DNA from: Scatophagus argus
Lineage: Eukaryota; Chordata; Actinopteri; Scatophagidae
Reading direction: 5' to 3'
DNA length: 64,000 bases
Assembly: GCF_020382885.2 (NCBI RefSeq)
Contig: NC_058506.1
Location: 14,052,318 to 14,116,317 of the forward strand
The notes beneath the pieces are model-generated. The model ran no database searches. It saw nothing but the letters and a program-made list of their open reading frames with translations, and was not told the DNA's origin. Positions 1-59,478 of this stretch are shown one piece after another; the stretch's first letter is position 1; every line of letters starts with the position of its first letter. Position numbers and translations under genes: made by a program.

Positions 1-1699
1 CACCGAACAGAGGATCAGAAAGGATTTTAACATGACGCTCCACAAATACAACCAAGTCTGCAAAGTGAGCTCTCTGCTGTGTCTGTTCCATGATTCCATA
101 AGCGATGGATCTCCATTGTTCCCTCAATTTGTATGGCAGCTTTGCAAGAATGGCTCTCATATTTGCAGGCATATCCAACTCTTGCATATACTCCAATTCC
201 TCCATTACATTACAGCAGCCACGCAGAAACAAAGAATATGCTTGGAGTGCTTTAACATCTTCACCCTTTATGGACTGCCAGGCTAGAACCTTTTTCATAT
301 AAGCATTAGCAATTTTATATTGATTTCCAAAATGCTCCTGCAGTAGGTCCTTAGCCACTGCATAGCCGCGATCAGGAGCCAAGTGCTGGCAGCTACGTAC
401 CAGTTGTTGTGGCTGTCCTCTGGTAAATTGCTCCAGATAGAAAAGACAATCTGCTGCTTCTGCTTTATTCTCCACTCCTTGCTCGAATGCTTTAATGAAT
501 GCTCTGTATTGCAAAGGGTTCCCTTCGAATATGGGAATGTCTCTCGGCGGCAGAGATCTTGCAGTTTGCTGTTGCACCAAAGCAGCTGTTATTTCATTTT
601 GTCTGTGCATGATGGTAAGTATGTCCTCAGATGCAATTTGATTTATGCAAGGATGAGTGAATTGATGAGTGATTTGGGGTTGACGGATTTCCTTGTTTAA
701 TTGAGAAGTTGTCATTTGACCTTTAAGTTGGTGTGAATTTCCCATGCTTTTCTGGTGGTCATGCATATTGTAGTGACGTTCAGAATCCGTTTTAAAACTT
801 GAGCCACGTTCCTTTGGTCGCACATCCAGTGGTTTATTTGGATTTACTGAACACTGTTGTTGCATCGACTTCCACAATCCAGACTGATATTCATTTGCCA
901 AAGAATTTAACACAACCACAGACCCATTTTTCCCTTTATTTTCCAGGTAAGAGCCCGTTGCATTTTTGGATCCTGAACCAGCACTTCCCACACTAGAGGA
1001 TTGCAATACTGCCAACTTAGCATTTGTTGCAGCTATTTCCACTTCCAAGTCCAGTTGTTCTCGTTTCCTCCTCAGTTGTTGCTCCTGCTCCTCCAATGCG
1101 TGTCTTTCCTTAAGAGCTGAAGCACGGGCAATAAGAGCAGCTCTTTCTGCTTCAGCCTTTATGCGTGCTGAAGCAGTGCTTGATCCTCCACTGGCTCTAC
1201 TTCCTTTACTTGAAGGTTTGCTTTCCACATTAGAAATGCTATCATCTGGGCCAATGTCATCCACCACCAGCCCAGTTGCATGTGCATTGTTTTCACTGCT
1301 TGTGACATTTTGATTGATACCAACCTCATTGTTTGTAACACCAACATTTTCTTGTATATTACCTTCCAAGTTTGAAACCCACATTTCTGCATCATGAAAA
1401 CATTCATTTAAAGACAGAAATTTTGCTTTAAACCATATTTCATGTTTTTCTTGTTCATCACTTGGCATTAAACCCAACAGCTGTTTATGGATACATTTTG
1501 CATCATCACACACCACCCTTAATTCATTCAAAGCATCACAAACCATTGTTTTATCACCCTTTACGATGAGATCTTTCATTAAGTTTCGTATATTGGCGGC
1601 TTTGTTCAGCTTTGCCTTTCGTTCCGCTTGCAACCTTAAAAGCTTATCAGCAAGCGCCTTTTCAGTCATTATAACTTTTCGTCCGCTTCCGGTTTCCAT
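1..1699 (-). mobile_element. BEL/Pao-type LTR retrotransposon, gag-like ORF (partial, continues past left edge)
   Basis: A single uninterrupted frame runs on the minus strand from an ATG at 1699 to the left edge, about 566 codons without a stop. The N-terminal part is charged and helical. A coiled-coil stretch of about 50 residues rich in K, E, R and Q follows (roughly 1040-1180). After a polar linker comes a conserved-looking block (roughly 1-560) with motifs such as IPIFEGNPLQYRAFIKAFE, LLQEHFGNQYKIANAY and FADLVVFVERHVKI. These are typical of the DUF1759/gag region that precedes protease and reverse transcriptase in BEL/Pao elements. Protease, RT and integrase would lie left of the window and are not seen. 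The frame is open and intact, suggesting a fairly young copy. It lies antisense to the limk1-like gene on its right. Family assignment is from remembered motif similarity. Confidence 0.8.
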
Positions 1700-2350
1700 G
1701 TTTCAGTCGCTCCACAGTTCGCAACAACCACAAAGTTAACACAAAGTCGATCACGTATTCAATTAGGCCACCAATGCATTGGAATTATGCCCCTTAATTG
1801 TGTGCACACAGGTCCAATGGCCATTATTGTAGCGCTACTCATACCTCGGCATCAGTGAGCTGGGCGCTATGCGGTGATCAGCTGATCCGATGCTCCGCTG
1901 CCTCGCCTGGCTCCGGTGTCCGCCGATCCGCTGCGGCCGTTCCTCCAACTACCGCCGAATTCCGTCGGAATCGCTGCGGCCCTCCGTAGCCGAACTCCAC
2001 CTCACGCCAAGACCCAGCAGCAACAGCAGCTCCTTTCGATCGTCCTCCCACGATCACCTCCTCCAGGCGCCATGCGGTACGGGCCGCTTTCCAGACCCAG
2101 CGAAGGCCGACAGGAACCACAAGGCCGATTGTTGCTTTCCCAACGAGTCCGATGGGAACCTAGTTTTTGACTAATATAGTGGCCCTTTGTCACTATCCGC
2201 GCACGCTGGTTGTTTGACTGGCTTGTACGCGTGCCTGTGTAGGTGTATGCAGGTGTAAATGCATAACACAGCCAATGTCCAAAACACTGCTGATTGTACT
2301 TCAGGTTTATTTAGTCTATATACAGTCAACTCAAAGGTACTCACTTTAAC
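1700..2350 (-). mobile_element. probable 5' leader and LTR of the BEL/Pao element (boundaries unresolved)
   Basis: This segment lies immediately upstream of the gag-like start. Reading on the minus strand, a TATATA box lies at 2317-2322 and an AATAAA signal at 2306-2311, an arrangement expected in a compact LTR with promoter and polyadenylation signal. A GC-rich leader follows at about 1860-2170. Without the second LTR, which would lie outside the window, the exact TG...CA ends, primer-binding site and target-site duplication cannot be fixed. No host coding exon is recognisable here. Confidence 0.4.
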
Positions 2351-15120: not shown

Positions 15121-18100
15121 TCAGGCCAGTTTGAGTGTGCTGACAGGGAAGGTTGGGACTGTAACCATAGTGACAGGGTTGAGGACGGCAGCCTGTCCAA
15201 CCAGCTGTGGGTGGGGGGCCAGCACTGCTGTAGGTTTTCCCAGTGATGGGCTCCCCTGGCTCATCACAGCTGCGCTGTTCACCTGGGCTCCGTTAGTGTT
15301 AGCTTGATGATTGGCCTGGACGTGCGGCAGCGTGTGATGGGTAAAGGTGTGAGTGATGTGGCCCACCATGGTGGGCTGGGACACAGATACGCCCTGGGGG
15401 TAGAGAGTCGGGAGGTGGGATGGTAGGGGACCTCCCAGGTGAGCCACCGGGTGGACGGTGATGTGTCCGATGGGCTGGGCAGCTATCTGCTGGTGAGTGG
15501 CGGTCGCAGCTGGAGCCGCCGCAATTGGCTGAGGGGTAGAGGAAGTGGGGCCAGGTGACGGGGCGATGTGCGTCAGGTGCTTGTGATTGGCTGGCAGGCT
15601 GTGATTGACAGCCTGGATGACTGAAGCGTGGGAGACGGCGGCGTGAGCGATGACAGTAGGCTGGACCTGCACTGCCGGGGGTTGAATAGGATGAGCCTGC
15701 AGTGGTGGGGGTGGACATGGGGCCGGAGCAGGGGCGATGGCTTGAGGGGGAAGGGGAGCAGAGGGGGAGGGTGTAGTCAGGACACCAGAGAGCGGCAGGG
15801 CAGTGTGCTGGATTGACAGGTGAGAAGGGAGGAGCGGCTGGGCTTGTAAGATGGCAGGTGTTGGTTTGGGGAGGGATGTGGGAGCAGAAACAGGAGTAGG
15901 GACATCATCATCGATGTCCTGCTCAAAGTTGTCTTCTCCTTCTGTAGATCAGAGAGGAAAAATGTTAGACATTGTGATGCAACTCAAGACACAGAGCCGT
16001 GCATATGCACATTAATGTTATGCAAAGTTCATGCATTGAAATGCAAACTAATCACTGCTTACTATAAAAAGTTTTATCTGTGCAACAGTGTCAGGTGTGA
16101 AACTAACATCTAATGTATGCCTGAGAGTTGCCACATCTCATCCCTGTACCTGAGGCAGTGGACGTGGAGGCCTGGTCGTCCTCTGGCTGGATGGTCTGTC
16201 GGAGAACTCGGTCGATCTCGATGACATCCATACACTGGCTGAGCTCATTCTTGAGCTCGGCCAACCGCTGCTGCGTAGCGATCTTCTCTCTGGCCAGACG
16301 CTCCATCTCATGCTCGTACTCCTTCTCCTTCCTCTTCAGAGTCTTGCAGGGGAGACAAGACAGCAGAGTAGATGAGGCTCACTAGTACATGTAAGAACTC
16401 TTTAAAACTCTGATTAAGCTTTGATTAAGAAGAGGTGAAAGGCACATGGTTGACAAATGTGCTGTCGATTCTCAAAGTAAAGCATGTATTCAGCTGAGGT
16501 GGTAGTCTGTATGAATAAATGCAGGTCAGAAAACACACAAAAAGGAAAATATATATTACAATGGATCACATTATCATGGAAATTCTGCCTACTATTGAGT
16601 TCCATCAGTAAATTCCATAAAGTTTCTCTTTTCAACAAAAATACTACCCACACTCACTTCATTAGTTCTTATGCACTTTAAGATCAGGAAAAGTTTTAAT
16701 ATGAAACAGATGGAGGAAGTGTTGAGGTTTCATTAATAGTTCACAGTACAAACAGTAAATTAACAATCCAAACAGCAGTACATCACAAAACAGGGAACAG
16801 GGTAATAAAATATAAAAACAGGACAGTAGAGACAAAAAACTTTGTTCTGTCTCTCATAAGGCCACAAATTGAGAAATACTTTATGTACGTTATATGAAGC
16901 CAGGATTAGTTTTAATGTTCAGAGAACTGGCACCGCAACAGAAACAGGGATTCGGACCAACTTTCTCTTTGCAGTCTTGCCACTCCCACATTTCTCCCAG
17001 CTTGCACAATCCTGTAGCACAGTTTTGCCAGGTCAGTTTCAAACACCAGCAGGGAAACGTGTACGCAAGTTCAAGCATGTCCATACTGCTTCTGTTGGCG
17101 TCATCTGCTTAAGCTCGTCCTGTTTCCTGGCCATCATGTTTGTTTGTTTGGTTTTTTTTTTTTTCAAGACAATGGGGTTCGAGTAGGAGAACACTTCCTG
17201 CCATGTTTTATTTACACCTATCACCCAAGTTCATCACCAGGTCTCCTGTCTGTGGATTACTGATGCCTGAACATTAGTCACACATGGCTAAACAAAAGTA
17301 ATCATTCCCAGCACGGCACTGTGAGTGTGTTTGTAGATTTACAAATGAAATGATAAAGAAAAACATGGCAGGAGACACTAAAAGAAAGAAAAAGAAAGAT
17401 AAAGAGAGAAAGCACAGAAGCACAGCTTCTCCAGCCCCACCATGCAGTCTCTCTGACCCAGTTTCTGTGTGGGTCAGCTGACGCATGAACACCAAATACT
17501 ACGACGGACTAAGGATATTAACACAGATTACGAGGGAGGAATTGGGGGGGGTCACTGGAAGAAAATGTTGGGAAGAGGAGGGCAGAGGATGGAGAGGTGG
17601 AAAGCAAGGCTCTAAGGGATTAGGCTGGTAAACCAGTGAAACGTTTTATGTGTGCACCTGTTATTTCATCACATTACTGAAAAAGAATATTCAGTAGACA
17701 TGACTATTCGGCAATTCCTGAAATCCTTCTGATCCTACTACAGGACAATGCTTACTCTCTGCAGACATGTGATGGCCTCACTCACATGTCCACTTTTCTC
17801 ACCGTTCCCATCTTAATTCATAGCCCTCGTTGCTTTAATAGCTACCAGTCCAGACCTGGTGAACTGCAATCTTATAACAGCTCAGCATTTCTCGGAACAG
17901 CCCCCTGCTGTGCTTCCACACGCAGCCTTTTTCACATAACTGTAAGGGTAGTTTTTAGTAAACAGGAGCCGCTTCTGGAAATTACAGCAATTTCAGCTCA
18001 TAGATTTCCAATAAGTACACTTTAACAGTCTTAACATCTGTTGTTATAATAAAAGTTATTCCAGCTGATTTACGTTTGCCGTTTCATGTCTGACAGTAAC

Positions 18101-21100
18101 ATGTATCGTGTGTCTGCTGCATGAGCAGACTCACTGGAGACAGTCCCTTTACAAGACTCAGTGTGACACCACTGACACACATTCGAAGCCAACAGATATT
18201 CTCTCTTAACATAATCTTGCTCAAGCTGGCCACAGATGAACTACAACTGCTTATGTATGAGAGCGTGTACGCCCATGAACATCATTTCAAGGTCTTCCCA
18301 TACAAACCGAGACACCATTAGCCTGCAGCAAATCACCAAGGAAACAGCTGTCACCCATAGCAGTTTCCCTGGCAACCTCATCTGTGAGGAATTGGCTGCT
18401 GCTTGTGAAAAAAACATAAGCATCTAATTGGGTGAAGCACAGGGGTATTTACATGTGAGGAGTGATGTGACTGGATGTTTGCCAGTCGAGCAAATCACCC
18501 CCCCAATCCTACGCTCCCTCTTCTTCCACTCCCCCATCCATTGCTCCCTCGACACCCCCCACCCCCACTTCATCTACGCTTTCCCTTTCAACGCATCCTC
18601 TTAATATAAAAAGGTGAAAATGATTCAAGCGCTGATGATATTGTGTCCTGACAGGGGTCTCTGCCTTAATCACCTGTGCACCTGTGTAAATGTCTGACCT
18701 TCACCAGGTTGATATGAGGACAAGCACAATAAGACGGGGGGTGAACTGAAACGCTTCGAGTCCTGAAAGCTCACTTCAGTGCTCCATCATCCATGACTGT
18801 CGACAAAAAGACCAGTATAGCAGAATCTGATTTACACACACACACACACACACACACACTCAGGCAAACATGAAGGAAAACCCTGGCCACCTGCCGTCCG
18901 TCGCCATGGTTACCAAGTGTTCTGAACACCAGAGACAGCAGGGAGATGCAGGACAACACACAGATGAAGGGAAGAAAAGGTTGAGTCAGACAGGGGTTAA
19001 AAGACAAAGAAAATCTGCGCCGGTTCCACCGTTACAATCATGGAAACACTGCTGTGCCACCCTATTAGTGCAAGCGGTACCTGAAGCAGCCTCTGCAATC
19101 TAACGAAGCGGGTGAGCTTCGGTGACGTCAACAGGCTTGCGCTAGCCATGTGCTCAGATCTCACATGGCTCTGGGAGAGGGAGAGAGACTGGAGTTCACA
19201 TAAGGAGAGGCATCAACAGAGGAGGTGGGGAAAGGGGGAGGGGGCTGAACATCTACAATAAAGAACTGATGATTATGTTATACATCAGAGGGGAAGGTGC
19301 CAAAACAGGAGCAAATATACAGGGTGGTGGCTGGATATTCAGCTTTCTAAGGCTGAGGAACAGTGTAGCCATGTGAGACGGCCTTTCTCATTGGGAAATA
19401 TGCTGCCGTCCAAATTAAATATTCCAAGTTAATTTTACACAAACAAAAAAGGCATCTTAGTTGGGGTTTTTACTGATGCACAGGAGTGAAACAGTTCATT
19501 AAGGTTAACATACCGGTAAGTGTTCTCACTTTACATGTGATTTTCCATATATTAGCCGTATCATCTGACGGCTGGGTGGGTGGCAAATCAAAAGAGCTGT
19601 TCTCTAAACCTTAATTTTAAAACATGAAAACGTCAGGCCTGCAGTACGACTTTCCTCACCAGCACCAGCATATCAAAGCATCACGGTATCCTGTCAAAGA
19701 CTGCCTAAAATCCCTTTGTTGTGTTCCCTGAAGGCTGGCCCAAGATCTTGCAGCAAGTCTTGTTTTGAACAGGCTCTTCCATCTCATGGCCTAATTTAGC
19801 TCCTTCCACTGACTCCCCATTGCATATTCCATTGAACTCAATATCATGGAGGCTCTAGTCCACAAAAAAAAGTGAGAATCGCTGCATCTAGCTCCAGGCC
19901 ACAGTGCAGAAATCCTCCCTCGTCTACTTTTGTAAACTGAAAACTCATCTCTTCGAGGCGTTCCAGGTCCCTCCCCCACACCAACCTCAGCAATGCAATA
20001 TTAGTAGCCTCCTCTACACAACTACAATATGCTACAAAACTTTCGCCACAAAAATGTTACTCTAATCCTTTCCGGTCACTTAGTTCTTGGGACAAACAAT
20101 TCCGCGTCTATTTCATACTGCATGACAACAGGACGTTACACAACAATTCTACTAGATAAGAATCTCACCGAAACACTTGAAATGCAATGTTCTCAAGAAA
20201 AGGAAACTTACTATAATGGACAGTACATAATAAAGACTCTCATAGGCTGCTTCGCCAGTATTTGTTTGGATGCCATATCATAGTCACAAGGGACAAACCA
20301 ACCAAAAGCTTAATGGCTATGAAAAAAAAAACAGGGCATTATATATTAATTACAAATGACCAAAGCCTGTGCTCTTCCCAGAACTGAACCAATCAATTCA
20401 AAACCAAAGACAATGAAAAGCAAGAAGCGAGCAGTAGACCACGTCAGACCACACCGAGATGTAAAAGCTTGCAGTTTCACCATGCTGGGAAAGCTGAGAA
20501 CATCTTCAAACATTTACCTGTATGTAACGCAAAGCACTGCGGAGAACGCTGAGGTTGGAGGTTTTCTTCTCGTCAACATTTGGGACGTTCTTCTTCAGCG
20601 TCTCAAAACACTCCTTGAGGTGCGCTCGCCTGGAGATCCAAAAGTAAGAAACAAGAAAGAGTCACACTTTGCATGTATCTTGGAGAATATTTACTATTTG
20701 CTGTTAAGCTAATAATTTGCTTGAGTTGTTGTCATTTAAAGAGTCCTCTTAACTCTACATGCCTGAAAAGGATTTCATGGTTTGTACAGGAAATGCCACG
20801 ATCTTTGGCATTTGCTTTTGAGCCCTTTCATAAACACACTTAATAAACACAAGAACACCTGTATATGGCAGTCAGGCTAAGGAAATCGGCTGTTTTGCTA
20901 TCCTTAAATACTAACGGCAACAAAAAGAAGTTCACCTTATTATGACTAACCTGTTCTTCTCCAGTTTATTGTGCACCTCTCTGGTCCCGGCTCTGGAAAC
21001 AAAAAATAAATTATAAAATACAACCATAAAACAATCTGCACTATAAATAAACAGACGCACACACATATACACATAAACTGACCCTCCTGGTCTCCTCTTC

Positions 21101-22351
21101 CCTTCCATCCCCCTCATGTCCTCCATCGTCACTCCATTAGGCCGTGGCTGAGATGTGGGTGTAGCTTGATGGGGGACCAGTGCATGCTGGGAGCCAGAGC
21201 CATTAGTGCTGATGGAGGGTGGGTACTGAATCTGAACCTGAGGCTGTGGCTGGCTGGGCTTTGTGCCAACCAGCTGCTGACTGGTGTCTACCTTCATCTG
21301 GGGGGCGCACAACAGGTGAGGAGAGGCCGGCTGCTGCTTTGGAGAGGAGGAGGCGTTCTTGGCTGGCTGAGAGCTGTTGAGCGTCGTTGCTGCCGCAGCA
21401 ATCGGGGTTGTGAGTGGGAGAGGCGGGACCGAGGGCGTCGCAGTGACAACCGGGACCATTGGGATGACAGCGATGGGAACTTGTGGAGGTGGGAGAGAGG
21501 GGGGAGGAGGAGCGGGAGGTGGATGTAGCTGTTGACGTTGAGTATCATCTCCCCAAGTGATGTGGTTGGCTCTGACTGGCGGAGACAGCGAGGTCACAAG
21601 TTCCACATGCCTCGACTCTGCCTCCCTATTGATGAGCTCCTTCTCCTTGCGTTGCTCTTCCTCTGTAAGAAGAGAGGAAGGAAGATGCACAAAGGAGTGA
21701 GCGATGGGAAATGAGGACTAACAAGTTAGAAAGATAAGACGTAGGAGAAGGCAAACAGGAGGGTAAACTGTACAGATAAACAGAACACGGGAAGAACAGC
21801 CCTCAGTTCAGATTTAAGAAAAACAAATCACGATGGATTATTTCTAGTGTACATCTGTCCTTCATGCCATAACGTAGAGTACATGACAACATTCATGTAT
21901 AGACAAACACGTGTCCATCCTGAATGTAGACCATGAGCTACGTCGAGTTTAAACATCATTAATTACTTCGAACTACTTTATTACTACCATCATCCAATAA
22001 ATGACAGTCTTGCCTTCAGCCAGTCTTTGCTGTTTTCATTGTTGTGATACAGATAACTTTGACAGATTGGATGCCACTTCGGACGCCACACAAACACAAA
22101 CAAGGAATGATGTCATCGGGGAATCAGATCATCTGGAGGGAGAAACAACCACAGAAACTGTCTGCATCCCTGTCCTCCTGACCGGAGAGAACACCCCTCC
22201 GTCTGTCCTGTGATTGGACCGTTCCAGCTCTGAGCATGCTCATACGCCTGGGCCACGTCAGGGCAGTCTGACCAACAGCAGTGGACTGTAAAGGAGCCAC
22301 TCTGCTGGGTCAACTATGGTTGGCACAAGGATGGAAAAACAAGACTTGTTG

Positions 22352-43755: not shown

Positions 43756-46700
43756 TCAGGTCTTTTTTTCCAGCTTGTCCACTTGAACCTTTCCTTGCAA
43801 CTCTGTCCTTACTTCTGCAATTTCCTTTGCACTAAAGGGAAAAAAAACATACATGTGAGGGAATCATAATCACAGAACAATCATCAGAAGAGATGAGAGT
43901 AGCAACCACTACTTTAGTTTATGTAATTTATTAGTTTAACATTACTTTAGTTATTTTTTATTTCTTGAAGTGGGACTGTTTCAGTGTTCACCTGAGGGGA
44001 ATGAGAATGATGCCATATATCAGGTTGAGCTGCTGAAGGATTGTGGGAAGGCTTGGTGTGGAAAACTAGAGAGAAACACAGGTGAGATAAAGTATCACAC
44101 AATCAGAAATGCTTGCATGTATATATATTCAGGTATTTACAAAGGTGAACAAACCTTTGGAGGTGGAATGCAGGCACTGGGTGTGTTACTGTAGATTTGG
44201 TTGATGGCTTTCTGAAGGATCACGGCCTGCTGGGTGAGACTCCTCAGGTACTCTGAGCTTTCTTTCGTACTGTCGTGGTCCTCACCAACCTTCATGTGTG
44301 AAATGTGAAAAGTCTCTTGTTTGAAATGAGAGCATATAGCATAAACATAATACCATCAAACAAGGTACTCTAACATTTAAAAACACACCTGGTTCTTATA
44401 TATTGAATAAGCCTCTTTCTCATGTTGCAGGGCGGATCGAAACTCTCCTTTGCTCTCATACACAGTGGCGAGCAGATGATGACTGCGCAGGAGACAGAGA
44501 TGGAGATGCACAGAGGTAGAGAAAAAAGCATTTCCATCATTTTCTCGTTACTTCAATGCAGTCTGTGTTTTTTGTCTTGCTTCTGAGAAAAGTGAGGAAC
44601 ATGACAACAAAGTGTCTTACCAGTGTGCAAGTTTCAGGGATGTGGCACCGTGGTATTTTGAGGTTGAATTTAAAGCATTCTGTAGGTACTTCAGGGAAAG
44701 CTCATACTCCATCAGTCCATGAAGCACTAGACCCAGCATACTCTGAGACAGCAGAGCATAACAAGATGCAGTTATACCTTCTAAAAGTGAAAGTGACTTT
44801 ATGTAGAAGCCTTCCCTGAATGTTCACAGGTGAGGACAGGTGATAAAGTATCTTGTGGTTGAGTACAGTGTTTTATTGTGATGCGGCAAGCTATCAAGTT
44901 GCCTGTTTGCATTACCCAGTTCCTTATCTACCTGGACTTTGTGTATGTACGTTTTATTCACATATGGTCCTCATCGAACATTGAACACAGAAAGGCATAA
45001 CGTCTCACTTACATCTAGCAGTGCAACTTGTGGATGGTCTTCTCCAGTCACAAGCAGGGTCAGGTACCGAGCACGATACAGCAGCTGCAGTGAGGTCAAA
45101 AGCTGGCCTCCAGCAAAGCAGTACAGAGCCAGGTGAGTCTGAATCACAGACAGGAAATTACTTCCATGTGAAGACATATAATATGAATACATTTAACTTA
45201 TGGTCCAACAATCTGTCTGTGAATTGATGAGAACTTACATAGTCTTGTATGGTCTGTGGGTGGTCTATACCCTGCACTCGCTCACTGCTCATAACAGCCT
45301 TCTCCTGGTGACTGAGGGCCTATGTGACACGGGGAAGTGAGGGAAACTCACTTTATGGAAACTCACAAATGTTTATATTTCTGTCTGTGATGATTCAGAA
45401 GTCTGGAACCTGGACAGGTAAATGGTAACGGTATAAATGAATCTGCGTACATCTGCATAGTCCCCCAAGATGTAGCTGAGCCGTCCAAGGAGACGCAGGC
45501 ACATGCACACATCCTCATGTAGGACCCCACATACACTGCTGAACAGAACGAGGGCCTGGCTGATCATTTCGTAGCCATCTTTGAGATGTCCTGGAAGCAA
45601 ATACAAAACACTGCTGATGAGTCTCAAATGTAGAAAAAATAATTAATTAACATGTGCTCTTCACATCCAGATGGTGACTCTAATCCACTAAATGATATCA
45701 CCTATCAAATCTCAGCAAATCAGTGCTGAATACATGACCGAGTACATACGTGACTTTAACTATTTGTGTATATGCCCTGAGTGACTGAGTTCATTTAATC
45801 TTGTGGTGCCCTCAAGTGGAGTTGTGTTTACTGTGTGCACAAGAAGAGTCCATTTGAAAACACCCAACCTAACATGTTAAAGTCATCCTTATATTTTCAA
45901 GGGTATCATAATAATAAACCCGCATTTCCATAAGCACCTTGAAAGGTTGGTGATAGGATAGGATAGGATAGGAAGGATGATAGATAGATAGATAGATAGA
46001 TTTTTTAAACTTGACATTGACTCCCAGTTGTTTAAAAGTAGCGCTCTACAGCCTTCAACCACTTTGAATTTGAATAGTGAGCTTTACTTTATACATCAAA
46101 AATACCCCCTCATAAGTTCAATTTAAAGGCACCAATAATACCAGATGTGTGACCATTTTAATTCTGCAACATTTTTGCCATGTAATATGTAATGAATGAT
46201 GTGATACTGTGTATGTAGTAAGGATATAAGGAAACATTTTTCTAACACATCCCATACTGTGTCTGTGTAGCTGGTAAATGTAATGTCTTGTTCCTCCAGG
46301 TCACAGTCAGTCACTTTAAGCACCTAAGTGGGGCGACCATGCTACCCTAAATGCAAACATATTGACTGTGTTACATGCAGCTGTAATTGTTTCGTATTTG
46401 TGTCTGTGTTGCTCACCCTGCTGCACTGCCACCTGTGCTTGCTGCACAAGCCGCGTGGCATCAGTTCCTGTAAGTTTCAGATGTTTGACCACAGGGAACA
46501 TATTGATAACATCTTCCTCGCCAAAAACCGGCCTGTGTCGAGACTCAAATGCATACTCCCTCAGCTGCATCTGAATACAGAGAAAAGGAAGCTGCACTGG
46601 ATTATTTGCACTTTGGCAGTTCCAAGTCAGTGCTGGAGATAATTTCAGTTTTTAGCAACCAAAAATCCTGTAGCATATTGTTAAGTCTCAAGTTATGTAA

Positions 46701-49700
46701 TCAGAAATCTGTATTGTTAAGCATCAAACATGAGCATACATTTCTTTTTTTCTGTGAGCTTGTAACATCTTTCTTGAATAAAGCAGAATCTATTTATATG
46801 AGCTCATGGGTAAACGAGATACATGGTGGATGACTGACCTGGATGCCCATCTTGATGGCAATCTCTCTCAGGAGGGAGCTCTTCTGAAGACCGTGCCTCT
46901 CTATTACTTCATCTATGCTTTCACTGAACAGAGAGGAAGACAGTTTAAAATCCTGTTGCACATATAGAGCCACAGACACGCACACACAGACACACACACC
47001 TGTCTATTTTGTAGTGGTAATAATCTCCAGCCTCAGTCCTGATCCTGTCCCACAGCTCCCCAGGGGTCAGTCTAGCCCACACACTGTCCGTCAACAAGGC
47101 AACACGACTCCCGTGGCTCCGGCGACGTCGGCTCCTGCGACGAGAGAGTAGCTCATCTGAGCAGGAGTCTGGGAAACAGGAGGAGGAACTCAGGAGGCAG
47201 TTTAGGAAGTGACTGACAGCAGCGGAGAACGCTGCAGGTTCCACATCCTGGGGACAAAATAGGATTAACGTTCATATTAGAAAAGTCACGCTGAACTGCA
47301 AAATTTATTCTCAAATTCTACTCGTCAACATTATTTGAACACCTCACCTGTAGATAGGCCCTGAAGACGTGTTTCGCACTTCTGATGATGACTTCACTGA
47401 TAGAAATTCTCTGTGAGGGAACATTTGATCAGTTATTTGATCGGGAGGAAATGTTCTCAATGTACAAGTTAACCGGAGAGGTAGAAATGGGCAGCTATGA
47501 TGACTTTATATACATGCAGTACGGTGAATATTAGATAGAGTACATACCAGTATGTGGCTGAGTCTCTGTCTGTCCTCCACACTGTCCAGCTCCCTCAGCA
47601 GGTGGCCCAGGTATCGTACGTTCACACCCCGCTGGTGTAGCGCTGAGGTCAGGGTCGCTCCATCCACTGGCACTGCAGCATGGTCGAGACAGTCCCTCAG
47701 CTACCAAACACACACACACACACACACAAGGGAGCAGCAGTATAATTATAGATCATCTTTAATTTCATGCACATGATAGACCCGAAGATTATTGCTCCAC
47801 ACACGACTCACCACTGCTGGAATCTGATTGGACAGTAGAAAAGCAGCAGCGTCCCATAACAGCTGCCTCTGCTTCTGAACCTCAGCTGCACACTCAGAGG
47901 AGAAACGAACACCTACAGCAAAGACTCACTGTTTAGTTGCTGTCTGATTTTTTTAAAAAAATGTCATATAAGCATGCGTGTGTGTGTGTGTGTACACACA
48001 AGTGTGTTCAATACCTGGAGAGCAAACATCAGGATTGAAGGAGATGTCAAAGGAAGAGTCGCTGACTGATCCGACAGCCTTACAAGCATTCATAATCACA
48101 CTTCTTCTTTGAAAATCTACAAAAGTAAAAGAACAACTACTAATGATGGAGATGAGTTTGTTTTCCAAGTTCAGGAATTACCTGGTGATAATCATCGTAA
48201 TATGCATGCATAACTGATTACTGTTTGTACCTTCCTTCTCACTGCATGTTTCTCTGTACAGTCATCTCATTTCTCCTTGTTTATCAGTAGGTTTGTCAAT
48301 TCACTTCACCTGGCTGATGTTACTCACCAGTGTCAGCACCAGTCGTTACTGCCTCTCCGGTTCTCGGCTCACAGACCGGCCCTTCACTTGGCTCTGTGGA
48401 TTTATCCTGGTCTTCCAGTTGGACGAGTCCCTGGGACACCATCTTAACGTACAGCTCATACCTGCAACAGGAGACACAAGAGGAATAAGATACGTCACAA
48501 GCTCAGTTCATCCTTCTGATTTAATAGTTAACGGGTGGCTTTCTTTGTGTCCAAAGCTGTTCCATATCTCCTCTTCCCCACCTGTGCTGGACGAAGGCCT
48601 CTATCAGCTCTGGTCTAAGGCTGGCCAGGCTGTGACGATGTTGCCGTGGGTAACCAAAGCTCTTACACTCCTTTGGCACCTCATTACTCTCTTCTGTCTC
48701 TGAAAACTGGAAGTTAAGGTCAGGGGGGAACGTCCGTAGAAGGTCCAAGATGTAAGGTCTTCCATCATTACCCAGGATGCCTTTGGTCTCGATGCCAGAG
48801 CAAAGCTCCACCGGCCTGTTGTTGTGGTCCAGCACCTGGTGACGCTGGATTCTCAGCGGTTTACTGGTTTTATCTAGAAGCTCCAGAAATCTGGTGCAGT
48901 GCAGAGAAAATTAAATGTTGCCTCAATATTTGAATTTGAACTCAATAAAATTCAATATACCTAAAATATTACATTTTATTGTTTTTTTGTGTGTTACCTG
49001 GGGTGTGTAAAAACTGTTTTTCCATAGTCATTAGAGCCATAGACTACACTCTGCTCCTGATTTTTCTCCAGTATGCCTGGAACAATTGTCTGAACAATGA
49101 CACGAATGCCACGATAGTCCACCAGAGCCATACCAAGTGTGTGAAGCCCCTCGGTATCAACAGATGTATAGGCCTGCAGCAGAGCAACACAAATATTCTT
49201 GTTTTGATGGCAATAACATGAAAGGATTAGATTACAGATCTTTGAAAGTGAAAATGATAATGTGAACCAAATATACATTTAAATGCAGGTGTTCCTGTCA
49301 GGATCTCTACCTGTGTTCCCTTCAGGTCACATACTGCAGCAGCATGAGCAGCAGCGTTGCCCCCTAGTGGGCGGTAGTGCTCGGATATGTCAAAGCCCAT
49401 GCTGAAGAAGAGGTTGTTCCAGATGAACATCTGCATATGAGGCACCTCCCCGGGGTTTAACGGCACAACGTTACCGTCGACAACGGCTACAGCACCTCGT
49501 GTTGCAGCTTCAACAAAGTCACTGTTGGTCTGGATGGAGGGGTAACGATCTTAGTTAACACAGCACCTCAACACATTTTAATCCAAGAGCGGGAAGAGGA
49601 AATTACTTCTGTGATCACACCTTGAAAATGCTCCTCTCTCTGTGTAGGCGCTCCTGAAGGGAGTTCCTGGCGAATTCCCTGCAGCCCTGCAGCTCCTCAT

Positions 49701-52700
49701 TCCAATCCCGACTCTGTGGTCATAAATATCAGCATCATCATTATTGTCAACACTTTCAGCTTGCACCATGACACTTTTGTTTTTGTTTGCATGTACATAC
49801 AAGCATGTGTCATAACTTCTATACTTTAGTGCAACATTATATTTCTCTGCATTTCCAAATTTCAGGTCTGCAACCTGCCCAGCTGTGTGTTCGTCCTGGC
49901 CCATGCGGCTGGTGTGTGTCTCCTCCGCTCTGACACAGTCCAGGGTGTGGTCTCCCTGATGGGCGATCCAAGTAAACACCTGAAAAGGTGTTGCAATCCG
50001 CTCATAAGGGTGTTGCTGGACTCTGGTTTAAAGCAAGTGACAAAAAACAAAAACAAAAAGAACAACATTTTTCTATGAGTGAAGTCAGTAGTCAGTATTT
50101 CTGTTTTATACAGATTAAAGTATTTAGTGTTATTTTCTAGAAGCACAAAGCCTCATATTGTATTCAAATACTGGACTGACGTGAACAGTGTTACATGTTC
50201 TTATATTAGCATGGATTTTCCAACTTAATTACAGTTTGTTCACCTCTTCCTCTGCAGGGCACTGAAGGTTTTCCTGAAAGCAGGGCTGACTTGACTCAGC
50301 AGCTCAACTAGAGAGTGGCAAAGGATTTTTGGAACTGCAGGTTTGGGGTTGAAGTTGAAGGCCGTTGACCTGGAGCAGTTGGAGCATGAACAGTTACATG
50401 AAGAGAGACTGCCAAAGTCACTATAATCCTGTGGGGGACATGAATGGTGGCACCAGATTTCACGGCTATTCATCTAGTAATGTCAATATCGGATACATCG
50501 TCTACTTTTATGTGCTTTTGGAGCCTGAGGAGAAGTAAGTTTATCATTTGAAGTCAACAAACACCTCAACCAGAAAGCAAGAACATCTGCACAAAATGTT
50601 GTGCCACTCGATTACAAAGAAAAAGAAAGAAAACAAGAGATATATCATGAGATAAGTAAAGTCTTGGCATGTCATTGGTGCCAATGGAAAGGCCAGAGGC
50701 TTCCACGGTGTCATTAGTATTCATCCTCTGCCGATCATTAATGGTTGTACAATCCATCCAATCATTGTTGAGATATTTCATTTTGGACAAAAGTAGAGGG
50801 ACGACCAACTCATTGAAATTGCTGCTAGCATTACTAATAGCAGTTTTCACATCTTAGCAAATGTGTAAATGGCTGATAAATTTCACACTCACTGGTTGAG
50901 GTAGAAACCACGCGTAGAGGATGTAATGTTGAGTTCTTTGTCTTCCATAGTCAGGACATTGAGGTACATTAAGTCCCCATGCATCTTCCTGTTTCCCGGA
51001 GGGGGGTTCCAGCTGCTCATGGTCAGGACCCGCAGACACTGTAATGGCTGCAGTGATACTTTTCATAAGTAATTCCACTGTTACTTCACTATAACTGAAT
51101 AACTACCAACTACCAATAACCACTCCACTACATTCTAACCAGTATCTGCATACAAGCGCTGATTTCTCACCTTCCTGTCCTCTCTGTTGGGTTGCAGTGG
51201 AGCAAGTGGTCGGTCCTTACATCCAGGAAGGACGTATTCTGGAGGTCTGAAGTCAACAGACTCCTTTTCAGAAGCTCGCCTGCTCCCCACACATTCGCTA
51301 TCTGAAAGGATGAAGATGGAGGATTACTGACGAAACTGCCCAGACAAAACCCGATGTGAGGAGGTTCTGAAGGAACAACATTACCTTTGTCCCCTCTGGT
51401 GTAAAATGTGAGGTAAGAGAGTGAGCTGCAGTTCACTCCGTTGTATGCATCCGCAGGGTCAAGGCTTCTGAGAAGATCACGTACATGTTTGAGGTGAAGA
51501 CGAGCATCGCGCACCGAGTAAGACTCTGCAGCAAGACCAGAGAAGATGCTTATGTAGAATATTATTCAGTCTTACACAAGTGCACACAATGAATGGAAAC
51601 TTGTTGCTATGTTGCTTTTCACAGAAGAGTATAAAAAACTAGTACCTTGGAAAATGAACAATACTCGGTATTTAAGTATTTAGTTTGTCACAAGGTGCAG
51701 CTTCTACTGATGAATCAGGTACACATATTTTTGACTGGTAGCGATGTGGGTTCTGTGGAGTCACGAATTCTGTCTTAAACCTTTTTGCATGAAGTGACAT
51801 TTTCAACATGTCTGCACAGCCTGATGGTCTGTGCGGTTTCGAGACATAAAGAGCGAGCATGTGTGAGTCCTGTACAGATTGGACAAGAGATCGACATGTT
51901 TCCCATGACAGCACATTACTGGTCCATATGAAGTATCATAAGATTGGACTGAAGTCAGCTTGTATTGTACTGTTATACTCAAAAGTGAACAAACTTAATC
52001 ATCACAGAGGGACAATTCATAAAGAAGAAAGAGAAGGATGAGGCAGTTACCCTCCACCACCTTGATCAACGCTCCGTCCTGCATGCCCTGGATGGAGCAC
52101 AGCTTTGTGAGACTGTCCAATGTGGTCCCTCCCAGCTGGAGGGAGAAGCATGTACGGTGACAGGTGATCTCATGCTCCATCAACACCTGGTGCAGTTCTG
52201 CCACCAACAGCTGGCCTGAAACCTGAGGGTGGGAGGCAGAGACTCTGGATTCAGAAAGACACATAGATACAGTGAAGTATCTAAGAAAATAATGACAGTC
52301 GGAAAGCCGAACCTGAAGCTCAAAACTTTCTGCTCCAGGAGGTTGAATTCTGACAGTAAAGCCCGTCTCTTGAAGATCAACTACGTCTCGGAGGCTAAGT
52401 TGTTCACTTCTGTCAACATTAGACTGCTGTGAGGGATCGTGCTCAGGGCTTTCTTCAGTTTGACGTGGAGGTGCTGCTGACAACAGAAGAGGCGAAATAA
52501 GGAGGTGAGAATGAAACCTGGCTATATGACATGGAAGATAAGTCTTCCAAGGATTGACACTAAAAGGACAGAGGAAAACAAGCTGTTATCATCTCACAAT
52601 GCAGGAAAATAATTTAATGTAAAACCGAAGAAAGAAACTATGAAAGGAAATTGAACATTTTCCATTTCCAATTGTAATTTAAGCAGTAGGCCTATAAGGC

Positions 52701-53832
52701 TCTCACCAGACTCTGACTTCTCCATATTTACGGTGTTTTTGATGTTGTATTTTGTCAGCTGAAGGTTCTTCTGTGAATCCACTGGAACTGTGTTTTCATC
52801 CATGTTATTTACATTGTGTTCAATCAGGTTCAGTAAGGTGCAGCCAGATTCAGTGTTTTGTTCTTTGTCCTTAATGTTCTCGAGCGTCGGTGGAGTGTTT
52901 TGCTCCGTCCAGGCGAAGTCTGTATTCAGTAGCAGCCTGAAGACATTCTCTTCATCAGTGTTCGACTCCTGCTTTAACTCTGTATTTTGTTCTTTTAGAG
53001 AGGTATGCTTTGATAAAATGCCAGTAAGTTCTTGATGGATGTGTTTCTCTTTCAGTTGTTCTTGTTTAGATTCTTTGTCTTTGCCCTCGAAGGCCAGTTT
53101 GTTTTTCTCTGTCTGTCTTTCCACCTTCTGTGGCCCCTCTACCACAGCAAAATCATCAGTGTCAGACCAAGTTTCAGAGTCTGTCTTCTTCTGTTGTTTC
53201 TCCAATGGTGCTTTAACGACAATTTCTGAGGATCTGTCCTGTGATGTTTGTGCATCTCTTGATGCTTCCAAGAGCACATCCACCTGTTTTAGTACTGTAT
53301 GCTCTTCCCAAACAACCATCTTGTTTGTAGTGCCAGTATTTGTTAGTGTATTTACTTCTCTCTCCAGAGCCTCATCATGACGCATGTGTATTTCTCTTTG
53401 TGGCTGTGACTCTGTCTGCGTCTGCACTCCCATACCAATCTGTGTCTCCACTTCAGTCTGTGTCTCAACTTCAGAAAAACCCCTGTTTCTCCCCTTGTCG
53501 AGCCTCTCTTGTCCTTCATCCCCCCTGACTCCCTCTTCCTCCTCAGAGACCAGCAGACACACCATCGGCTCCACCAAAGTCACGTCACCTCCCATGTTGC
53601 TGCTGAGGATGATGTCAGGAAACAGGAAGTGTTCAGGTTCGAGGGTTGGGTTTGTCACACCAGTGGACACGGTCAACACATCGTCCTCCAAGTTGTCTGG
53701 CAGACTCGGTGAGTCACATTCACTCTCTTCGCTGGAGAGGAGTGGTGATATTTCTGGCTCACCTTGGGCTGGTACATCCTTACACTTAAAGTAGTTTGAC
53801 AGTGTGTGACAGCATTGGACTATGTTTCCCAT
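43756..53832 (-). CDS. cluh: CLUH-family protein (clustered mitochondria homologue) with a large N-terminal extension
   Basis: 28 coding exons, minus strand: 53832-52707, 52476-52313, 52222-52051, 51525-51385, 51301-51171, 51047-50893, 50369-50244, 50022-49875, 49713-49621, 49529-49311, 49173-48998, 48890-48582, 48461-48328, 48116-48015, 47912-47812, 47700-47548, 47410-47348, 47247-47000, 46923-46839, 46570-46417, 45590-45451, 45319-45239, 45138-45013, 44742-44621, 44482-44389, 44289-44155, 44065-43992 and 43831-43756. Every junction keeps frame, giving 1615 residues (human CLUH about 1309). From exon 2 on it aligns throughout with CLUH: a ubiquitin-like CLU-N domain ([20 protein letters not shown]), the CLU domain ([33 protein letters not shown]), a middle helical part (NACKAVGS) and TPR repeats ([20 protein letters not shown]). 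CLUH binds mRNAs for mitochondrial proteins and sets mitochondrial distribution. Exon 1 adds about 375 residues absent from human CLUH, beginning MGNIVQCC, a predicted N-myristoylation/palmitoylation signal; an in-frame ATG 10 codons upstream (53862) is possible. Probably a fish-specific paralogue or isoform. Confidence 0.93.
45806..45819 (-). promoter_or_regulatory. CTCF-like core, one mismatch
   Basis: The minus strand reads CCACTTGAGGGCAC, differing from CCASYAGRKGGCRS at one position (T for A at position 6). It lies in a cluh intron (45591-46416). Confidence 0.35.
45952..46001. repeat. (GGATA)n and (GATA)n compound microsatellite
   Basis: Four to five GGATA units pass into GGAAGGATGATAGATAGATA-type GATA repeats within a cluh intron. 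Confidence 0.9.
49357..49370 (-). promoter_or_regulatory. CTCF-like core inside a cluh coding exon, one mismatch
   Basis: The minus strand reads CCACTAGGGGGCAA, matching CCASYAGRKGGCRS except at the last base. It encodes the segment HYRPLGGN of the CLU domain exon 49529-49311. Confidence 0.35.
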
Positions 53833-56800
53833 GATGCCTTTGTGCACAAAACAGCAATGCAACTGTGCAGGTGGCCTAAGGAAGAAAAGACCACAGTGTT
53901 AATACAGGCTCAGTTACAATCTTCTAAGAGAAACTTTGAGGTAAACTACGACTGATTACAAGTGATTTTTATTTTTGTAGCTTCAGCCAGCAATTCAGTT
54001 ACCGTAAATATAATAACCTGTCAAAGCTGGACCAGGATGTGGAAATGTGAGTATAGACTTTGTAAAAGTATTTGGTGAGTACAATATTATAAGAGCTGAT
54101 ATAAGACATAAAATTTGTAAAGAGAGATAAAACCCAAGATTATATAAACTGTAGTTTTCCTTTAACAGCAGCAAAAATAATCTTGTTTTACTGACCACTG
54201 GTTTCTCAGCTTCCTTCTGTTATGTAGAAGTGTACTCAAGGATATGGTTGGTGCATTGTGGCTTCACTGCGTCTCAACGATCGTAATTCATGGGAATATT
54301 CTCGGGTAAAACTCACTCAAAACTTTTTAAGAGCATATTTGAGTTAAGCTGCTATGTATAAACTGCAAAAGGCTTTGTCATTGTCACGTGTCTGTTTGCG
54401 TGGTATGTGTCAGTGCAAGCAGCTAAGAGCCTTAGACAACAGCTGATGACAGTGAGATTATGAATAGTTTCTACAGAGGTGTCACCTTACAGTGGAAAGG
54501 ACTGGAAGATCTCTATGACTAAATCTCATCAGATGAACTCTGGATTGATGAGTATGTGGGAAGCTTTGAGCACAAATGATGGGGAAAACTGAGGAGAATT
54601 TTACATATTACCTCTAAGTTACAGTTATGTGACTCTATAAAAGCAGCAGAATATCCTAAACACATTCTAGCTAATCAGAGCTACATGCAACACTCCTTAT
54701 TCGAGCTAATGAAAACACAAAAATGCAGCAAAAAACATGTTGAACATGTCTCAAACAACAGCAGAATATAACAGCATCAGTAACATATTCGTGTAACCAA
54801 TCTATGGGCCCTACCAGCGAGTGCAGAGAGATGGAGAGACTGCCAGTCTCTGTCTCTAGATTCCTCTGCTGTTCATGCTGCTGAAATCAGAGGGCTGAGT
54901 TCCCCAGGCTTTCCTCTAGTGCAGGAGGCTCTCCTGTCCTTGCTGCGACACCACGCCACACAAACCCTGTCAGTGCATGTGTTTGTCTGCCCTTCATGGG
55001 TGGAGAGGAGCTGTGAGAGAGCATGCAGGCCCTCTATTCACACACACACGCACACACACATGCACACGCACGTTCACACACTTAGTACCCATCCAAGTCC
55101 AGAAGAGGGCAATCTCTCCACCGTTCATGATGTAACTTCCTGTACTCACACCAGCCCGTGCACTCTCTATCAACCTTGAATGTGAGCACATGCAGGAGGA
55201 GTATAAATAGCAGGAGGAGGTCTGGCACCTCTGCACATTTTGCCGAGCCTACCCCCGCCTCCTCCACCCCTCCAGTTTTCTGTCTCCGTCCTCTTCACAC
55301 ACTTTGAGGCATGAGCTGGAACACAGCCCTCTGGTTGCCATGGCAGCGCTGCAGAGAGACATTAACATTCTGAGCAGGAGTCCATGACAACTGTGGGAAC
55401 ATTCTAGAATGGGACGATTGCTAGGAGACAAGTCGTCCCTACTATTAAATGCATGTAGTAATGACTCAGTGTCTCTTCATGATCGTCATTAACTTAATCA
55501 TGAAATGAATCTAGAATTGTTAATTTCTTAGGTTTTCACTGCAGCAACATATCTACTGTAACAGGTTATTCAATTTAGATCCCATTTCAATTAATTAGTT
55601 CACTGCATCATTTCAGTGTTCAGTTTTAGTTTAATGTTAAAGGAACAACAGAGGCCTCAGACCCCTGCCAAGGCCAATATATTTTGTTTGAGAAAAACGG
55701 GTTGTTATATTTATGGGATGCTACAATTGAAACTGCTGTCCCTGAGTGCTCCTTAACAACAACTTTCTCTATGACTTCCACCAAGTTTCTGGCCAGTAGT
55801 TTTTCCATAATCCTGCTGACAAACAGACAAACAAGCCAAGACCCTAAAACAAAACAGTTCTTACCTCAGTCCAAAAACACCAATGTGGTTTTGTCCTGGG
55901 AACCTTGGGCTGACCCTGCCACGACCCTTGCTCAGAACCTACCTATGTCATTTTCCCATTTGCAAATAACTCTCTACTCTATTTCAGACAGCAGATGGAC
56001 AGTCAGAGTGAGTCATCACAACCTTCCTGCCTGTCTCCTCAGAGTCCTTTGAACTCTTCACCCTCTCTCCCTTTGAATATTTAATTTGCTCAACCAAGCC
56101 TAGAAAACTTGGAGATTTGGTTTGTTTTTTTTTACTTCTTTGACACCTTCAGAAATGCAGGAGGATCTGAGCATATTTTAGTCCTGGTCAAGGCTGGGTT
56201 GTACTGCCACCCAGTGTAGGACTTACGAGCTTTTAAGTGGCATGCTGTAGTATCTTTGAGCTGCTGAAAACATTCCAGATCCTAAAGTGGGCCATGAACC
56301 ACTTTGATAAGTTTATGCTAGGTTATATTTATTAGTGGTGAATGTTTGGGCTTATTGGGCTTATACAGGGCTTATTTTGGCTAATTAAGAAATTATTTGG
56401 TCTACAAAACATAATTGCCTTGTGTGTTCAATATTCCAACCCCATAAATACTCAGTTTACAGTAAATCAAACGGAGGAGAAGCTGGAAACAAAATGCTTT
56501 TGCTTTTTTTGATTTTCTGTTGACTGACAATCTGATTAAATATCTAATTTTTTCAGCTCTTGTACAATTTCAGTAATAGTGAAACCTGTGAAAGAGCAAC
56601 ACTAATGTAAGTGCCACTTCTGAACAGCAGTAGGTCTCATAGCTGATATTTTAATATGTCACAGTAGGAAAAGCATGGGCGTAAGTGGTAAAATGAATGA
56701 TGGCTGGATTCCATTTAGCTCACAGTCCTGCTACTCTGGCTGCTTCATTTCAGCAGAGCTAACCTTAATGTTACTGATGATTTCCATACTTTGACTGTGA

Positions 56801-57350: not shown

Positions 57351-59478
57351 TCACAGAGCAGTTTCTCCCTCTCCTGCTCCCATGTCCACCCTGCTGTGTA
57401 CCCTGATGTCCTCTATGTCCTCCCATTCGTCCTCCAGCCCCTCTCCCTCCTGTGTTCTGAGCGGTTGGCTCAAGCGAAGGAGGCGATATCGAAGCGGCAC
57501 CAAGAAGAGGGCGGGGTCGGGCATGGGGTGTGGCCTCTGCGGTGATGTCACTCTCTCCTGTGGGACGCAAGCTCTGACCCTCTCCTCCCTCACGCTGACA
57601 CGCCTCCTGTGTCTATCTTCTGGTAGACTTGGAGAGGCGGGAGGAGGCGGAGACAGAAGCCAGTCCGAGCCCTCCTCTTCATAATCTTCATCCTCTTCCT
57701 CCTCTTCGTCATCTTCATCCTCATTCTCCTCCTCCTCTCCCTCTTGTACCTCCTTTCCTCTGGGTTCCTCGTCTGCCTCTGCAGCAGACTCTGTGCTCTG
57801 CCTTTGTTGGAACAGTTTTAAGCGTGCCGTGTGGAGCTCATGGCAGAGGCTCGTCGTGATGACATTTTGCCGTTGGAGTTCGCGACTCAGCAGAGTGATC
57901 TTGTGGCTGCGGCGTTTCAGTTCCTCCAGGAAACATCGCTCTTCCTCCCTCAGGCTCCTTCCAAGCGCTGATGCCCGTGCTCGGCCGGCCCGCAGCTCCC
58001 CACGCACAGCGACCATCGTGCATTGCCGGTCCTGTAGGAGATGCTCTGTAGCCTCACATCGTGCTGCCAGTTCTGCTTCCTCCTCTGAGACATAATAATA
58101 ATAATACATACAGGATTGACTGAAGTGTATGTGCACATTTCACAGATACAGACGATAGTGTAGATGCTGATTTGACCTTCACTTATCACCCATTGCAACC
58201 TAGCTGAATAAATAAATCATACACCAGGATACCAGGATGTGTCCAGATGGACTGATTTAACTTTTTACACTCCCACCTCATCTCAGGGTATGTGCCAAAT
58301 CTGTGCAGCTTACTGTGTGGAATTCATGGCTGATTTTTATGTCAGGTAACATAATCAACGGCAGAAAACAAAGAATTTTCTGGTGTAATTTACAAAGAAA
58401 CTGGATGGAAGTCATACAGATACTTCATCTGTAAGAATCAGTGGCATATTGGATCAGTGCATCCTTTTTACTAACAACATAAGAATGGCCACATAACACA
58501 TTATAATAAAGCTCCACAAATTCAAAAGGAGCACATTTCAAGACATGCAGTTTCAATGCCAGAAAACATGCTGGTTATGTTGGATACTGTGTCCTCTGTC
58601 TACAAGTCTTGCTCAGTCAATATCTACCTTAAAGGGCCAACTCGACATATCACCTTCAGGCAGCCAAAACAAATCAGAATTCTTCAAAGTATTTTTTTAG
58701 AACAGATTTTTGAAGTCACTGTACACAGGAACAGATCACACCAAACACGTCTGCACAACTGCTCTTCAGGAATAACTTTATATCTGCCTACTTTGGTAGC
58801 CAGTACCAAGTCTTAATTGAGCACAGAATGATCTTTGCCATCTTTTTAAATTATGTTTTAAATGAGGTTCCTAATACAAATCATTTTTAATTTGAATGGA
58901 ATTTCTGAGCTTTGGCTTGTTCCAAATCTCCTATTTCCATTGTCTTAAAAAGGATCTGTCACAGTAATGCAGTAAAATATATAAAAAGGCTTCACTCCCT
59001 TTACTGTAATAATGTTGCATGTGCCTTGTCATTGCACCCCCTTCTGGCATGAGATCCTTCTGAGTTTCCAGTCCTCCTCTGCAGAGCTTTCAAGCTTTCC
59101 TCTCCATTACAAGAATATACAATTTCAGCATCTCCAGCATTTCATTTTCCCCTCGAGAAGGAGTTGTACTGTCTTACCTTGTGTGTTTCTATCAGGAAAC
59201 CTGGAGTCCAGCTCACAGCTTAGCTCTGCAACCAGGAGGAGGAGAAACACAAGAGTTACACGGACAGAAATAAAAGATAAAGACAGTGTGACAGACAGGT
59301 AGTCAGGTGGTTAAGAGATGGAGAGCAGCAGGTCATGAGCAGACTGACCATGACAGCGCCTCTTCAGGTGTGTGATCTCCAGCTGCAGACCGGTCAGCAT
59401 GGCCAGGTGCTCCTGCTTCAGGAAGGCGATGCCTCTGTCCACGCTGGCCACCTGCTGCTCCAGCCTCCCTGCATCCAT
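57351..59478 (-). CDS. ccdc92b: coiled-coil domain-containing protein 92 family (CCDC92B-like)
   Basis: Three coding exons on the minus strand, 59478-59349, 59225-59178 and 58084-57351 (stop TGA), join in frame to give 303 residues. The N-terminus (LEQQVASVDRGIAFLKQEHL, then MLTGLQLEITHLKRRCHELS) matches the CCDC92 coiled-coil opening (LENQLHSAQKNLLFLQREHA, then LKGLHSEIRRLQQHCTDL). The second exon is unusually short compared with CCDC92. The last exon continues the coiled coil (FLEELKRRSHKITLLSRELQ), then has an acidic run of about 40 residues dominated by E and D (about 57665-57745) and a conserved MPDPALFLVPLRYR motif like MPDPTPFLLARE. CCDC92 proteins are associated with centrioles and cilia; a role for the B paralogue is inferred only. 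Its place beside cluh agrees with human CCDC92B on 17p13.3. Confidence 0.85.

Follow-up and report, generated by a model that had tools for sequence, protein, structure and literature searches.

A candidate first coding exon with two in-phase splice donors would give a duplicated fish CLUH gene a variant N terminus

The genome of Scatophagus argus contains a CLUH gene in which a 375-codon exon appears to encode a variant N terminus. Both the exon and the CLUH copy are real. The gene is one of the duplicated CLUH genes of this fish, and its coding sequence most likely begins in this exon, which we call the MGN exon after its first residues. The gene lies on the minus strand of a 64,000-nt stretch of contig NC_058506.1 (assembly GCF_020382885.2, positions 14,052,318 to 14,116,317), hereafter the window, whose own numbering is used throughout. 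We assign a probability of roughly 0.55 to a gene model in which both of two in-phase donors in this exon are used, a figure that covers the gene model and excludes the lipid attachment and LC8 binding considered below. Under this model, the proximal donor would yield a near-normal CLUH of 1260 residues that starts MGNIVQCC, and the distal donor would add a 352-residue, acidic, disorder-like tail to give 1612 residues.

Results

The window contains an intact CLUH gene

The CLUH gene consists of 28 exons separated by 27 GT-AG introns, which together form a single intact frame of 1612 residues followed by a stop. Exons 2–28, including the stop, occupy 43756..52476 (-) and encode CLU_N, CLU, eIF3_p135, and TPR in one frame. 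A Pfam search with the short spliced form of the protein returned these domains in order (CLU_N, E = 5.7e-10; CLU, 5.8e-81; eIF3_p135, 6.3e-55; TPR, 7e-23), bearing out the gene identity assigned by a first-pass annotation made from the sequence alone. The annotation had also proposed a phase-1 splice from a GT donor at 52706 to 52476 on this strand, and our splice model agrees: the GT follows one extra base of the MGN exon, the intervening first intron is 230 nt (52477..52706, -), and the acceptor at 52476, which opens exon 2 (52313..52476, -) and the start of CLU_N, takes phase 1. This acceptor is a NAGNAG, either version of which keeps the frame. All splice-site scores reported here were obtained with matrices that we composed ourselves.

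Several other reading frames were observed in the window. One of them, translated by eye, starts MAERPKAKLSGKVGIHKSIDSETG at about 42395 (-), 1.4 kb beyond the stop of CLUH. A 567-codon open frame at 2-1702 (-) matches DUF1759 in Pfam and is likely a retroelement. Open frames at 15124-15948 and 20935-21717 (-) resemble what we take to be MNT; the frame at 15124-15948 (-) had no Pfam match.

The open frame of the MGN exon is not due to chance

The first-exon frame runs from 53832 to 52707 (-) without a stop, and its 375-codon translation starts MGNIVQCC and ends MEKSES. Dinucleotide shuffles of the exon contained a mean of 19.5 stops and none of 2000 was stop-free, while the two other sense frames of the exon contain 17 and 28 stops. 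The stop-free run that encloses the exon extends for 434 codons; when the window was shuffled 60 times with a Markov model, the longest such run reached 248. Chance does not account for this open frame. The 375-residue exon described in the first-pass annotation is thus real, as it is stop-free where no shuffle was and splices in phase, but its full length may represent only one of two splice forms.

Codon usage was considered as proof that the exon codes and was rejected, since it does not discriminate the exon from presumed non-coding frames. The exon scored 71.3 bits and another sense frame of the same exon 69.5 bits; 48 of 894 frames from presumed non-coding DNA of the window scored at least as high as the exon, and the synonymous part of the exon's score was negative (-14.9 bits).

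The peptide encoded by the exon has no relative in Pfam (E up to 1) or among PDB sequences (E up to 10), and a search of viral contigs gave eight pattern matches, none of which was confirmed. DNA and protein searches of the 570.7-Mb genome itself yielded no relative of the exon elsewhere; we attribute two further protein-level matches (E of 3.7 and 6.1) to chance. Among the papers listed from the open-licence PMC literature, we found neither a CLUH with such an N terminus nor the letters of its peptide.

The ATG at 53832 is the likely start codon

The start codon and the residues MGNIVQCC are encoded at 53809..53832 (-), and the ATG lies in a strong Kozak context (ATCATGG). An acceptor-like site at 53875 (ttcttccttag/G), 43 nt before the ATG, scores 12.9 and is the best of ten sites scoring at least 5 between 55500 and 53833. 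Given the strength of this site, the exon probably begins there, with an untranslated 5′ part at 53833..53875 (-). By sequence inspection, there is no further ATG between 53875 and 53833, and together with the Kozak context this makes 53832 the likely start of the CLUH copy.

Could translation start elsewhere? The frame upstream of the ATG is open for 22 codons, and five donors further upstream have the phase needed to splice a coding exon to 53875, although these donors are weak (5.5–6.6) and the context of the ATG, as well as the lack of another ATG within the exon upstream of it, speaks for initiation at 53832. Alternatively, the MGN exon could belong to another transcript, with CLUH starting elsewhere, as two upstream ATG frames (with donors at 55303 and 55152) could bypass the exon in phase. 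We consider both versions of an alternative start very improbable, also because a second CLUH gene in this genome, described below, has a similar layout in which a stop in the same frame precedes the ATG.

Two donors could generate long and short isoforms

If translation starts at 53832, the two phase-1 donors of the MGN exon predict two proteins with the same start. The coding part common to both forms is 70 nt, or 23 codons plus one base (53763..53832, -), and ends at CAAG/GTGAGC, a proximal donor that scores 11.0. The optional coding extension is 1056 nt, or 352 codons (52707..53762, -), and ends at TCTG/GTGAGA, a distal donor that scores 8.7; the remaining CLUH donors score between 0.3 and 11.2. 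The proximal donor is the strongest of the 13 scoring at least 4 in the stretch comprising the exon and the intron. As seven of these 13 are in phase 1, the occurrence of two in-phase donors is less striking than it might appear, and their common phase is no more than mild evidence. Nonetheless, the stronger phase-1 donor at 53763 indicates that a short isoform could exist, in which MGNIVQCC and 15 further residues precede exon 2 and the 352 codons are optional. The predicted length of this form is 1612 less 352 residues.

At one extreme, the proximal donor might be the only one used, such that the protein has the 23-residue start and 53762-52707 is an intron. The donor scores (11.0 versus 8.7) and the codon usage, which is not coding-like when computed on the whole exon, are consistent with this arrangement, but the 352 codons are stop-free, as were none of 2000 shuffles (mean 18.1 stops), which argues that the extension is translated at least some of the time and renders exclusive use of the proximal donor improbable. 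At the other extreme, only the distal donor would be used, giving one long, disordered, non-acylated extension that is tolerated or acts like a linker and involves no switch. The greater strength of the proximal donor weighs against this possibility; the frame that remains open through the distal donor, the disorder-like composition of the extension and the departure of its N terminus from the N-myristoyltransferase (NMT) motif (both described below) fit it, and we regard it as unlikely but as the best of the alternatives. Use of both donors is the reading that we prefer.

A second CLUH gene has a different predicted first exon

The first-pass annotation had suggested that the unusual N terminus might belong to an isoform or paralogue, and this holds, as a second CLUH gene with a similar first-exon layout is present in the same genome. 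This gene, on C5 from about 13869699, is 60–66% identical to the window copy in most matched pieces; overall, 718 of 1162 aligned residues are identical. Its first coding exon is predicted to comprise 45 codons that encode an unrelated peptide (MVSKTDD...) and to end in a phase-1 donor, and its CLU_N exon takes phase 1. This exon was the longest of four candidates with an ATG and a phase-1 donor. It was also chosen for its resemblance to what we take to be typical CLUH starts. An acceptor-like site lies 59 nt before its ATG, one of five such sites within 400 nt upstream of the exon, and an in-frame stop lies 12 nt before the ATG; the exon that follows contains a further in-frame ATG.

The two copies share a phase-1 first junction, an acceptor-like site ahead of the exon with the start codon and, as described below, a neighbor. 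They differ in that the predicted C5 exon codes for 45 residues of unrelated sequence; beyond the donor base, its frame runs into a stop after 8 codons, and the first intron of the C5 gene is 6397 nt. A tblastn search with the predicted C5 exon, taken as the canonical N-terminal peptide, gave no match in the window, a result that bears on the exon and not on the identity of the gene as CLUH. The MGN exon would stand where the C5 copy has its short MVSKTDD... exon.

A third, more distant CLUH-like gene on C4 (about 7379000-7387100, -) has CLU and eIF3_p135 matches, and its individual pieces are 31–61% identical to the window copy. Its acceptor at the first junction, read by eye, takes phase 1, so that phase 1 at this position is found in the window and C5 copies (scripted) and in the C4 acceptor. 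With C4 as outgroup, faster evolution of the window copy was not supported (43 sites unique to the window copy and 55 unique to C5), in an alignment that was built with the window copy as the query and favors it.

Upstream of CLUH and in the same direction, the window contains a gene (57354-59478, -) that presumably corresponds to CCDC92B, and a similar gene, likewise in the direction of CLUH, lies upstream of it on C5; the two are 48% identical in one exon. The presence of this gene beside both CLUH copies fits a duplicated block. We infer that the window and C5 genes probably arose by block duplication, probably in the teleost genome duplication.

The start could be acylated through its cysteines

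If 53832 is the start, Gly2 follows the initiator Met, and the first-pass annotation had proposed that MGNIVQCC fits the NMT rule. This was not upheld. The motif attributed to Castrec and colleagues, MG[^DEFRWY]X[^DEKR][ACGST][KR] (PMC9018777), agrees with the sequence at positions 2 to 5, but Gln occupies position 6 in place of [ACGST] and Cys position 7 in place of [KR]. The requirement at position 7 is described as open to relaxation, and the further residues named for position 6 are Arg, Asn, Phe, and Val, without Gln (PMC9018777). A plant protein with Arg at position 6 is reported to be myristoylated in wheat germ lysate, whereas Arg-6 peptides were not myristoylated in rabbit reticulocyte lysate (PMC3668125). 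Myristoylation of the start is possible but not indicated. Myristoylation can help to direct proteins to mitochondria (PMC6235283), which is compatible with the tethering proposed in the first-pass annotation but adds no support for MGNIVQCC itself. No feature observed in this analysis pointed to the outer mitochondrial or the Golgi membrane, the two sites that the annotation had suggested.

The two adjacent cysteines noted in the first-pass annotation are present, at residues 7 and 8. We consider acylation of the MGN start, mostly through these cysteines, somewhat less probable than its absence. If acylation does occur, we envisage S-acylation of the cysteine-rich 23-residue start, either alone or together with weak myristoylation, and a loose association with membranes. 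Two other candidate signals, an EISPLL dileucine and a LIR-like DDFAVV, were dropped because they arise in 57% and 9% of shuffles, respectively.

The tail is disorder-like and contains clustered TQT motifs

Residues 1-375 have low hydropathy and a net charge of -37, which places them on the disordered side of the charge-hydropathy line, unlike the rest of the protein; by this composition, the optional extension looks disordered. At residues 124-141 (53410..53463, -), it contains an LC8-like cluster of TQTE, TQI, and TQTE, in which residues 124-127 and 138-141 conform to the core [TVI]Q[TV][DE]. In 20000 shuffles of residues 24-375, three TQ[TVI] within 25 residues occurred in a fraction of 0.0002, and two TQT within 16 residues in a fraction of 0.0027 of shuffles of the same residues, although the TQT motif was chosen after looking at the sequence. 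There is no TQ[TVI] in the other 1237 residues of the CLUH copy, where the looser core occurs once (VQVD at residue 1603), and the frame of the MGN exon is the only one of 163 open reading frames of at least 80 codons in the window to contain a TQ cluster.

LC8 is described as preferring D or S at -4 and K at -3 (PMC3078936). E and V precede the first TQT and G and V the second, so that neither flank has the preferred residues. Given these flanks and the post hoc choice of motif, LC8 binding is only a suggestion, and we think it doubtful that the TQT pair of the long form binds LC8/DYNLL dimers. Were it to do so, the tail could serve to tether CLUH ribonucleoprotein particles or to cluster them.

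Discussion

To our knowledge, the placement of CLUH particles near mitochondria is not settled. CLUH binds mRNAs that encode mitochondrial proteins, and it assembles into ribonucleoprotein particles (PMC9135405). How might two donors in a first coding exon bear on this function? One possibility is that they constitute a splice switch, in which one form is a membrane-tethered CLUH with an acylated 23-residue start and the other adds the 352-residue tail, which recruits LC8 dimers. The choice of donor would then determine whether particles with mitochondrial mRNA are bound to membranes or are clustered or linked to dynein. We consider this switch improbable.

Because the window copy may have a built-in membrane anchor and an optional tail, exchanging first exons between it and the C5 copy would offer a direct test in a naturally occurring CLUH. 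The gene would also exemplify how duplicated genes can diverge through replacement of a first exon while the splice phase is kept. If the MGN start is not acylated, the exon would represent an unusual but ordinary N-terminal replacement.

The predicted features can be compared with those of known systems. LAMTOR1/p18 has Gly2, adjacent cysteines and then a dileucine, and the CLUH copy has these features as well, with EISPLL at residues 27-32; because such a dileucine arises so readily in shuffles, this likeness carries little weight. The tail resembles multivalent LC8 clients of the ASCIZ type in its closely spaced TQT anchors and disorder-like stretch, but differs in having two TQT and one TQI only, with flanks that depart from the preference, and in that its LC8 sites are predicted from sequence (PMC10046861). 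Finally, globin X of fishes and amphibians belongs to an otherwise soluble family and is extended at its N terminus by a segment in which Gly2 lies close to a Cys, as in the CLUH copy. The acylation sites of globin X were tested with mutants and its Cys is at position 3, whereas the CLUH start is read from sequence and has Cys at 7 and 8. Globin X thus shows that a fish protein can have an acylated N-terminal extension (PMC3176823).
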